From contig CACMHW010000003.1 in assembly GCA_902613545.1 (NCBI GenBank), positions 45,071 to 109,070 of the forward strand: 64,000 bases of DNA, in the 5' to 3' direction. The notes beneath the pieces are model-generated. The model did not search any database and had not been told where the DNA came from. It was given only the letters and a program-made list of their open reading frames with translations. Positions 5,433 through 50,460 of the stretch are shown one piece after another. A program made the translations under genes and the position numbers. Position 1 is the first letter of the stretch. Each line of letters starts with the position of its first letter. This DNA comes from an uncultured Pelagibacteraceae bacterium (GTDB lineage Bacteria; Pseudomonadota; Alphaproteobacteria; Pelagibacterales; Pelagibacteraceae).

Positions 5433-5592
5433 CCCCATCTGTCTATGTACCTGAGAGATTTAATCCTTCGGTGAGGCTTACGCCTGCTTTCCAGAGTTAT
5501 TACGGTAACGGTCCTTTTGCCTGAGAGTTTCCGGGGTGGTTGCTCCTTCGGCGCCTAAATGGTCTCTCCCGTTACACAAGAGACTCTCCTCT
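5433..5592 (-). promoter_or_regulatory. Tandem glycine riboswitch upstream of gcvT
   Basis: Minus strand contains GGCGCCGAAGGAGCAACCACCCCGGAAACTCTCAGGCAAAAGGACCGTTACCG, then GGATTAAATCTCTCAGGTACATAGACAG: two aptamer-like halves directly upstream of gcvT. Confidence 0.93.
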
Positions 5593-47868: not shown

Positions 47869-47910
47869 TAAACATTTGACAAAATGATTATTTATTTGCT
47901 ATAAACTTTA

Positions 47911-47962
47911 TAGCGCCGAGTTAAGGCAACTTGCGGGCGCTTAAAAAATCCAGCTAAAGCGT
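47911..47962 (+). promoter_or_regulatory. SAM-II riboswitch aptamer
   Basis: GCGCCGAGTTAAGGCAACTTGCGGGCGCTTAAAAAATCCAGCTAAAG; P1 GCGCC/GGCGC, GAgTTAA core and AGCTAAA 3' segment as in SAM-II. Confidence 0.85.
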
Positions 47963-47975
47963 CAGAGTCTTTCGG

Positions 47976-48004
47976 ACCACCGCTTTAGTCGGTGGTTTTT
48001 TTTT
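47976..48004 (+). terminator. Intrinsic terminator/expression platform of the SAM-II riboswitch
   Basis: ACCACCG-CTTTAGT-CGGTGGT followed by a T run. Confidence 0.88.
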
Positions 48005-48023
48005 GGAACAATCTAAAATTAAA

Positions 48024-48080
48024 CCGGGTATTTGAACCATATTGTACACCTGGCATATGCCAAAGTACTAAAAAGGAGAA
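48024..48080 (+). promoter_or_regulatory. SAM-V-like riboswitch adjacent to a Shine-Dalgarno
   Basis: H-type pseudoknot: P1 GGTAT (48027-31)/ATGCC (48057-61), P2 GTAC (48044-47)/GTAC (48065-68), then TAAAAAGGAGAA. Confidence 0.7.
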
Positions 48081-48081
48081 G

Positions 48082-48159
48082 ATGAATAGAATTAAACTTC
48101 GTTCATTCTTCTCCAGAAAGACGGAGAAAAAATGTTCGAAACGACAAGAGAAACAGTAA
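48082..48159 (+). CDS. uORF1 in metY leader (25 aa, MNRIKLRSFFSRKTEKKCSKRQEKQ)
   Basis: AAGGAGAAG immediately 5' of ATG at 48082; TAA at 48157; same frame as metY. Confidence 0.55.
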   Translation: MNRIKLRSFFSRKTEKKCSKRQEKQ

Positions 48160-48179
48160 GGGGGAAAATCAATGACTGA
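48132..48179 (+). CDS. uORF2 in metY leader (15 aa, MFETTRETVRGKIND)
   Basis: CGGAGAAAAA 5' of ATG at 48132; TGA at 48177-48179 overlaps the metY start (ATGACTGA). Confidence 0.5.
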   Translation: MFETTRETVRGKIND

Positions 48180-49464
48180 TTTTAAACATCCGGAAACTAT
48201 TGGCTTACATGGTAGTGATTACAGAGCTGATCCTACTACAACAGCTGTAGCAGTTCCAATTTACCAAACAACTTCTTACCAATTTAAAAATGCGGAACAC
48301 GCAGCAAATTTATTTGGTCTAAAAGAATTTGGTAATATTTACACACGTATCATGAACCCGACTGTAGATGTGCTAGAAAAAAGAGTTGCAGCGCTTGAAG
48401 GCGGTGTAGCAGCATGTGCAGTAGGATCAGGCCAAGCAGCATCAGCTATGTGTATTCAAAACTTAGCACAAGCTGGAGATAATATTGTTGCTTCAACCGA
48501 CTTATACGGAGGTACAGTAAACTTATTTAAAAATACTTTAAGACAACAAGGTATTGAAGTTAGATTTGCAGATCCTGCAGATCCAAAAAACTTCGAAAAA
48601 GTGACTGATGATAAAACAAGAGCTTACTATGGTGAGACTCTTCCAAATCCTTATCTTCGTGTTTTTCCAATTAAAGAAGTTTCTGATATCGGTAGAAAAA
48701 AAGGTATTCCTTTAATTATCGATAACACAGCTTCGCCAGTAATATGTAAACCTTTAGCTCATGGAGCTGCAATTGTGATGCACTCATTGACAAAATATAT
48801 CGGCGGTCATGGTACTTCAATTGGAGGAATAATTGTAGATGGAGGAAATTTTGATTGGATTAAAGATAGAAAAAGACAACCTCTATTAAATGAACCAGAT
48901 CAAAGTTATCACGGTGCAGTTTGGGCAGATGCAGTTCCACAATTAACTGGAGCTAATATCCCGTTTGTCATCAGAGCAAGAGTGGTTTTATTGAGAGACT
49001 TAGGTGCTCCTTTAAGTCCGTTCAATGCTTTTCAAATCATTCAAGGTTTGGAAACTGTAGCTTTAAGAATGAAACAACACTGTAGTAATGCAGAGAAAGT
49101 TGTGAATTTCTTAGATGGTCACAAAAAAGTTAAAAAAGTAATCTATCCAACTAATTATCAAGGTGAAATTAGAGATAGAGCTAAAAAATATATGCAAGGT
49201 GGTTATGGATCTTTAATAGGTATGGATCTAGGAACAAAAGAAGCAGGAGCTAAGTTTATTGATAACTTAAAAATGCTTTACCACGTAGCAAATATTGGTG
49301 ATGCCAGAAGTTTAGCAATTCATCCAGCTACAACAACTCACAGTCAATTAACTGAGAAAGAAATGTTAGCTGCAGGTGTTACACCAGGTTACGTAAGATT
49401 GTCGATTGGTATAGAACATCCAGACGATATTGTTGCGGATATCAAGCAAGCTTTAGCTGCTTAA
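48172..49464 (+). CDS. metY: O-acetylhomoserine (thiol)-lyase
   Basis: 430 aa; MTDFKHPETIGLHG, AVAVPIYQTTSYQFKN, HSLTKYIGGHGTSIGG, SLAIHPATTTHSQLTE. Confidence 0.96.
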   Translation: MTDFKHPETIGLHGSDYRADPTTTAVAVPIYQTTSYQFKNAEHAANLFGLKEFGNIYTRIMNPTVDVLEKRVAALEGGVAACAVGSGQAASAMCIQNLAQAGDNIVASTDLYGGTVNLFKNTLRQQGIEVRFADPADPKNFEKVTDDKTRAYYGETLPNPYLRVFPIKEVSDIGRKKGIPLIIDNTASPVICKPLAHGAAIVMHSLTKYIGGHGTSIGGIIVDGGNFDWIKDRKRQPLLNEPDQSYHGAVWADAVPQLTGANIPFVIRARVVLLRDLGAPLSPFNAFQIIQGLETVALRMKQHCSNAEKVVNFLDGHKKVKKVIYPTNYQGEIRDRAKKYMQGGYGSLIGMDLGTKEAGAKFIDNLKMLYHVANIGDARSLAIHPATTTHSQLTEKEMLAAGVTPGYVRLSIGIEHPDDIVADIKQALAA

Positions 49465-49512: not shown

Positions 49513-49920
49513 CTACCTTCTATTATAAATATTAGATTTTTTCGCTATCTCTTCAATCTTAGTAATAATTTTAATTTTTTTTATCGGGTATTCTTTCACA
49601 ATGTCTGCTGTATTATCTATCATTGCAGTACTTTTTAATTTAATTTGTTTTTTAACAATTGTGCAAAATTCAGACCTTGTTATTTCAAAAGAGGAAATGC
49701 AGGTTTCTTTTTTTCTCTCAGGATTTTTTTCCTCTGCATAAGCAATAGCGTGTTCCAAGGGAGTTTTTCCTGTTTGTTTTTTTACCCCATAACTTATCAC
49801 TGAATTTAAACTGGACTGAACAAGTCTTCCATTCGATGCGCCTGAACCGAGTAATGCTAACGACTCAGCACATCCGTTGAGCAAGAAAATAATTGGTGAT
49901 AATAGCAGTATCTTTTTCAT
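49513..49920 (-). CDS. Small lipoprotein, paralogue A
   Basis: 135 aa; lipobox LLNGC; GCAESLALLG, GVKKQTGKTPLEHAIAYAEE. Confidence 0.7.
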   Translation of the reverse strand: MKKILLLSPIIFLLNGCAESLALLGSGASNGRLVQSSLNSVISYGVKKQTGKTPLEHAIAYAEEKNPERKKETCISSFEITRSEFCTIVKKQIKLKSTAMIDNTADIVKEYPIKKIKIITKIEEIAKKSNIYNRR

Positions 49921-50058: not shown

Positions 50059-50460
50059 TTAATCTAAGAACTTAATTTTAGATTTTTTATTTATTTTGGG
50101 CTGAAGTGATGAAGTAAGGTCTTTTATAGATTTTTCCTTTGATCTCATCAGAATTTTAGATTTAGTTAATTTTAATTGCTTTTTTACTATTGCACAAAGT
50201 TCGGAATTAGTTTTTTCAGCAAAAGATAAACAAGGTTCCTTTTTTTTATCAGTATTTACTTCTTCTGCATATGCTACTGCATGTTCAATTGGACTTTTTC
50301 CAGTTTGTTTTTTTACTCCGAAATTCACTGCTGAAGAAAGGGCTGCCTGGGCAATATTTCCACCCGTTGCAGCTGAGGAAGTAGGTCCTAATAGAGCTAA
50401 AGATTCTGCGCAACCTGTTAGTAAAGTAAATCCTATCAATAAACCTAAAATTTTTTTCAT
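50059..50460 (-). CDS. Small lipoprotein, paralogue B
   Basis: 133 aa; lipobox LLTGC; GCAESLALLG, GVKKQTGKSPIEHAVAYAEE. Confidence 0.7.
   Translation of the reverse strand: MKKILGLLIGFTLLTGCAESLALLGPTSSAATGGNIAQAALSSAVNFGVKKQTGKSPIEHAVAYAEEVNTDKKKEPCLSFAEKTNSELCAIVKKQLKLTKSKILMRSKEKSIKDLTSSLQPKINKKSKIKFLD

Follow-up and report, generated by a model that had tools for sequence, protein, structure and literature searches.

The SAM-V riboswitch has been described as acting through direct occlusion of the Shine-Dalgarno (SD) sequence of the gene that it controls, an SD usually found no more than ten nucleotides away from the start (PMC2704228, PMC6061858). In the published model, part of this SD is held in P2a together with nucleotides 14-15 of the aptamer (PMC6061858). 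Direct control of the ribosome-binding site by SAM-V is also what the passages of PMC9481103 and PMC11508383 considered here report for the bhmT tandem, and the published models of the bhmT SAM-V, in the parts drawn upon here, treat its GGAG as the SD. An exchange of an anti-SD strand was not found in those passages of PMC9481103 and PMC11508383, and an earlier description in the 2009 SAM-V paper is possible. Pairing between anti- and anti-anti-initiation regions is known from the B12 riboswitch of M. tuberculosis ppe2, where the stop of a uORF overlaps the start of the gene and carries the signal (PMC11260477).

Elements of the metY leader

The window, a stretch of 64,000 nucleotides from an uncultured Pelagibacteraceae bacterium, carries a metY gene (48172..49464, +) for O-acetylhomoserine aminocarboxypropyltransferase (TIGR01326, 574.8 bits), and a glutathione synthase gene lies upstream. 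The leader contains a SAM-V aptamer at 48017..48081 (+), a clear member of RF01826 with a score of 74.4 bits against a gathering score of 41. As for the described SAM-V upstream of metY, SAM would be expected to lower translation (PMC6061858). The 3' end of the aptamer carries a first SD, SD1 (GGAGAA, 48075..48080, +). SD1 is, however, not close to the gene as direct occlusion would have it: it begins at 48075, 97 nt before the metY start at 48172, and a second SD, SD2 (GGAGAA, 48123..48128, +), is found at 48123. In contrast to the described SAM-V output, SD1 would here act as an anti-anti-SD and the second SD would serve the gene.

Both SDs are accompanied by small reading frames. uORF1 (MNRIKLRSFFSRKTEKKCSKRQEKQ, 48082..48159, +) begins just after SD1, and its frame is not kept in relatives. 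SD2 is the ribosome site for uORF2 (MFETTRETVRGKIND, 48132..48179, +), the stop of which shares an 8-nt overlap with the metY start. Additionally, a purine-rich site that belongs to metY itself, GGGGG at 48160-48164, is outside the direct cover of the switch.

The arrangement SD1, stem, anti-SD, SD2 and start is referred to below as the relay layout, and leaders with SD1 directly before the gene are referred to as direct leaders. Upstream of SAM-V, the covariance model RF00521 matched a sequence at 47903..47977 (+) with 24.8 bits (E = 0.0012 in 351 bases), which falls short of its gathering score, 36. It is followed by a terminator-like hairpin, CCACCG...CGGTGG and then nine T (47977..48004, +), giving the same order of SAM-II-like aptamer, terminator and SAM-V as in the published bhmT tandem. 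The upstream match is conserved in eight relay leaders of the window's genus (g1), and the hairpin is invariant across the aligned relay leaders. A T-run upstream of SAM-V was present in all 95 relay leaders, and in some direct leaders too. The upstream SAM-II (SAM_alpha) candidate thus fits the published tandem in position, terminator and conservation, yet its score is below the cut-off, and we therefore label it only SAM-II-like.

Elsewhere in the window, a glycine riboswitch was identified at 5499-5581 (-), with a score of 64.1 bits (cut-off 32). Two neighbouring small ORFs on the minus strand (49513-49920 and 50059-50460) are alike (MKKIL...GCAESLALLG) and look like a tandem lipoprotein pair.

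Two pairings of a shared anti-SD strand

A first-pass annotation of this DNA had proposed that a single anti-SD is opposed by two identical SDs and can mask either of them, though not both at once. The segments concerned were confirmed in the sequence, with GGAGAAGATGAA at 48075-48086, TTCATTCTTCTCC at 48102-48114 and GGAGAA at 48123-48128, and the proposal was supported. The strand common to both pairings is the anti-SD TTCTCC (48109..48114, +). Folding of 48070-48180 gave hairpin 1 (48075..48114, +) as the minimum-energy structure, with 13 bp plus 3 and a single bulged U at 48106, at -21.5 kcal/mol (z = -2.33; 5 of 200 shuffles fold equally well). Its helices join 48075-48087 with 48101-48114 and 48089-48091 with 48098-48100 (+), and it was retained when the SAM-V sequence was included in the folding (48017-48180). 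Hairpin 1 was also considered as a terminator and rejected, as no T-run follows it.

Hairpin 2 (48109..48128, +) pairs 48109-48114 with 48123-48128, forming 6 bp with an 8-nt loop, and appears once the GG of SD1 (48075-48076) is blocked in folding. Of the two, hairpin 1 is the more stable in the window, by several kcal/mol. Hairpin 1 is the predicted SAM-free (ON) pairing and hairpin 2 the predicted SAM-bound (OFF) pairing, with SD1 able to engage either through its GG with aptamer C14-C15 (P2a, SAM-bound) or through GGAGAAG with the anti-SD. The hairpins had been proposed as a third switching layer downstream of SAM-V. SD1, however, lies inside the SAM-V match (48017-48081), and the published SD role is in P2a (PMC6061858), so that hairpins 1 and 2 are better regarded as the read-out of SAM-V: in the folding model they are its own output stage, with all structural states being predicted ones.

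Distribution, conservation and link to the aptamer

The search for SAM-V covered 197 genomes at the level of the order, 88 of them positive, and 169 at the level of the genus, 131 of them positive, with coordinates taken from the covariance-model search, as simple consensus patterns gave many false matches. Amongst the 212 non-identical SAM-V leaders from SAR11 that form the comparison set, 95 from several genera have the relay layout (93 by pattern match, with L018 and L087 added by eye), and the remainder are of the direct kind. They precede 64 metY genes (g1), 17 bhmT-like genes (g1), 11 bhmT genes (mainly g3) and 3 metE-like genes, names which, apart from the window metY, were given from N-terminal sequence without a family search. 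The order-level sample contains 18 relay leaders in 102, and metY within g1 occurs in both forms (69 relay versus 40 direct). TCTCC followed by GGAG at the relay position was found in none of the 119 leaders sorted as direct, versus 93 relay leaders by a similar pattern. Among the matches listed in a pattern scan of genome contigs, most of the non-SAR11 entries were chance occurrences without SAM-V, and a scan of viral contigs with the same filter gave no SAM-V relay leader.

Some individual leaders deserve mention. L022 has SAM-V and hairpin 1 without a second SD or gene start after them and is probably a relic of a lost bhmT, with the look of a decayed copy. Five bhmT-like or metE-like g1 leaders (L204, L210, L211, L224 and L260) have aptamer details in common with the metY relay leaders, a likeness which suggests that the tandem cassette moved between genes. 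SAM-V also occurs before a homocysteine-methyltransferase-like gene (L055, L065, L066, L083, L085, L089-L091 and L093-L095), where AAGTGAGG replaces AAAGGAG and the SD is consequently shifted relative to P2a.

Both the SD1:anti-SD and the SD2:anti-SD helices can form in nearly all leaders, as judged from 28 distinct triples listed (one row, that of L087, was wrongly anchored and is disregarded). The covariation among SAR11 homologues that such pairings would entail is present. The stem sequences are unlike between groups, yet each is complementary to its own partner: for the distal arms of hairpin 1 in nine groups, pairing with the own partner averaged -7.9 kcal/mol, versus -4.5 with the partners of others (permutation p = 0.002), the L109 and L018 groups individually showing no better fit to their own partner. 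At positions 6-8 of hairpin 2, beyond the core, the observed pairing was reached in 10 of 5000 permutations; positions 6-8 of hairpin 1 were marginal (311 of 5000). The GGAGA core is almost invariant and therefore yields no covariation. Most relatives have ATGAACGAA at the uORF2 site, which lengthens hairpin 2, versus ATGTTCGAA in the window. In most metY leaders hairpin 2 includes AUG2, because AUGAACGAA after SD2 matches the strand that is also matched by AUGAAC after SD1. The window thus departs a little in sequence from the rest of the relay group, and with ATGTTCGAA it would be more ON-biased.

The effect of SAM was imitated in ViennaRNA, which cannot treat the pseudoknot, by forbidding the two SD1 bases to pair. 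With this block, median predicted SD2 exposure, a value that varies with the length of 3' sequence included (0.04 or 0.48 for L072), fell from 0.45 to 0.000 in the metY group and from 0.68 to 0.007 in g3 bhmT leaders. It fell from 0.07 to 0.000 in g1 bhmT and from 0.08 to 0.001 in metE-like leaders, where it was low already without the block. The drop was above that of most shuffles, being reached in 4 of 200 for L069 and 0 of 200 for L334, as compared with 58 of 200 for L072 and 37 of 200 for L035; for the window the control was modest, with 9 of 200 reaching the drop.

The relay layout is also associated with the aptamer itself. C14-C15 stands opposite the GG of SD1 in the window and in the relay leaders, in agreement with the P2a pairing of the published model. 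Direct leaders (n = 116) have C14-U15 in at least 109 cases and CC in one (L099), with U15 facing A53 (84 leaders) or G53 (24). Of 28 leaders retrieved by C15, 27 were relay leaders and the other was the bhmT leader of HTCC1062, in which hairpin 1 is present; the 22 retrieved by U15 were all direct. These were mostly known loci, and the new ones (L377 and L379 with C15; L407-L409 and L412 with U15) all conformed to the rule. Common descent of the cassette accounts for some of this association, which is thus supportive and no independent proof.

Candidate mechanisms and their bearing on SAM-V

The reading that we consider probable is a strand exchange. Without SAM, GGAGAAG of SD1, at the 3' end of the aptamer, would pair with CTTCTCC of the anti-SD in hairpin 1, SD2 would be open, and uORF2 would be translated, as would metY via the overlapping stop and start. 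SAM binding would draw the GG of SD1 into P2a with C14-C15, and this withdrawal would free the two C of the anti-SD to serve as a toehold. Having the same GGAGAA, SD2 could then displace the remainder of SD1 with hardly any energetic penalty. The resulting hairpin 2 would mask SD2 and turn translation OFF. uORF2 is intact in all 64 metY relay leaders, with the 8-nt overlap with metY, and from this preservation of frame and overlap we infer translational coupling of the two. The uORF2 stop falls within codons of metY, a circumstance that may contribute to its preservation. By analogy, the ppe2 B12 switch is the nearest functional precedent for a relay through a uORF; it differs in ligand, aptamer and phylum, its overlap is 4 nt (AUGA) versus 8 nt here, and metY, in contrast, has the purine-rich site of its own.

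The first-pass annotation had added that a ribosome on uORF1 would melt both hairpins. In a relay driven in this way, ribosomes would start at SD1 in the SAM-free state, translate uORF1 and thereby expose SD2, and a block of SD1 by SAM would let hairpin 2 form and mask SD2. We regard this as rather unlikely, since hairpin 1 itself would conceal SD1 and AUG1. Furthermore, only 46 of the 64 metY relay leaders have the canonical uORF1 frame; the 18 departing from it include 5 with stops within five codons, 12 that are frameshifted or otherwise divergent and 1 without an ATG. In 9 of the 11 g3 bhmT leaders there is no uORF1 ATG near SD1, and the hairpins are there nonetheless. With its frame not maintained in these two groups, uORF1 is probably not a selected peptide, and melting by its ribosome is not supported as a general mechanism. 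The g1 bhmT leaders are the part for which the proposal may stand: in all 17 of them uORF1 is maintained and reads on past the anti-SD, 16 have an overlap of 4-8 nt between its stop and the bhmT start, and predicted SAM-free SD2 exposure is low.

SAM-V might also act on SD1 alone, as in the direct control already published, with hairpin 1 as a fixed stem and hairpin 2 forming rarely. Such an action would agree with the direct occlusion of published models and with the greater stability of hairpin 1 in the window, and it is distinctly unlikely in view of the distance of SD1 from metY (97 nt) and from HTCC1062 bhmT (73 nt), the lack of the anti-SD/SD2 arrangement in all 119 direct leaders, and the retention of hairpin-2 pairing. 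That no switch exists, and that the shared complementarity reflects base composition alone, with SDs rich in purines, an anti-SD rich in T and leaders rich in AT, we hold to be highly improbable. The invariant GGAGA core pairs are uninformative on this point and the shuffles of L072 and L035 often reach the exposure drop; against it stand the absence from direct leaders, the distal-arm covariation and the C15 link.

The relay layout bears on the published bhmT tandem RNA, in which a long distance separates the GGAG of SAM-V from the annotated start. In an HTCC1062-like genome (G011, by its matching coordinates presumably HTCC1062 itself), the bhmT SAM-V leader (L018, C1:1127359-1127423) has a clear hairpin 1 and a weak second SD (AGAGGAAA), and 73 nt separate its GGAG from the start that the published intergenic region (1127293-1127553) implies for bhmT. 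In many SAR11 leaders the SD of the gene is about 50 nt further on, so direct SD cover cannot be the whole output of SAM-V. We tentatively propose, as a possibility that falls somewhat short of an expectation, that SAR11 SAM-V has a second, separable output class, in which a toehold exchange between two copies of a ribosome site would control at least three genes, the signal to metY would pass through translated uORF2, and SAM would be read by termination (SAM-II-like), exchange and coupled translation. The relay layout would explain how a change of two base pairs at the edge of the aptamer could control a distant start, and the direct and relay metY leaders inside one genus provide natural pairs for testing it.
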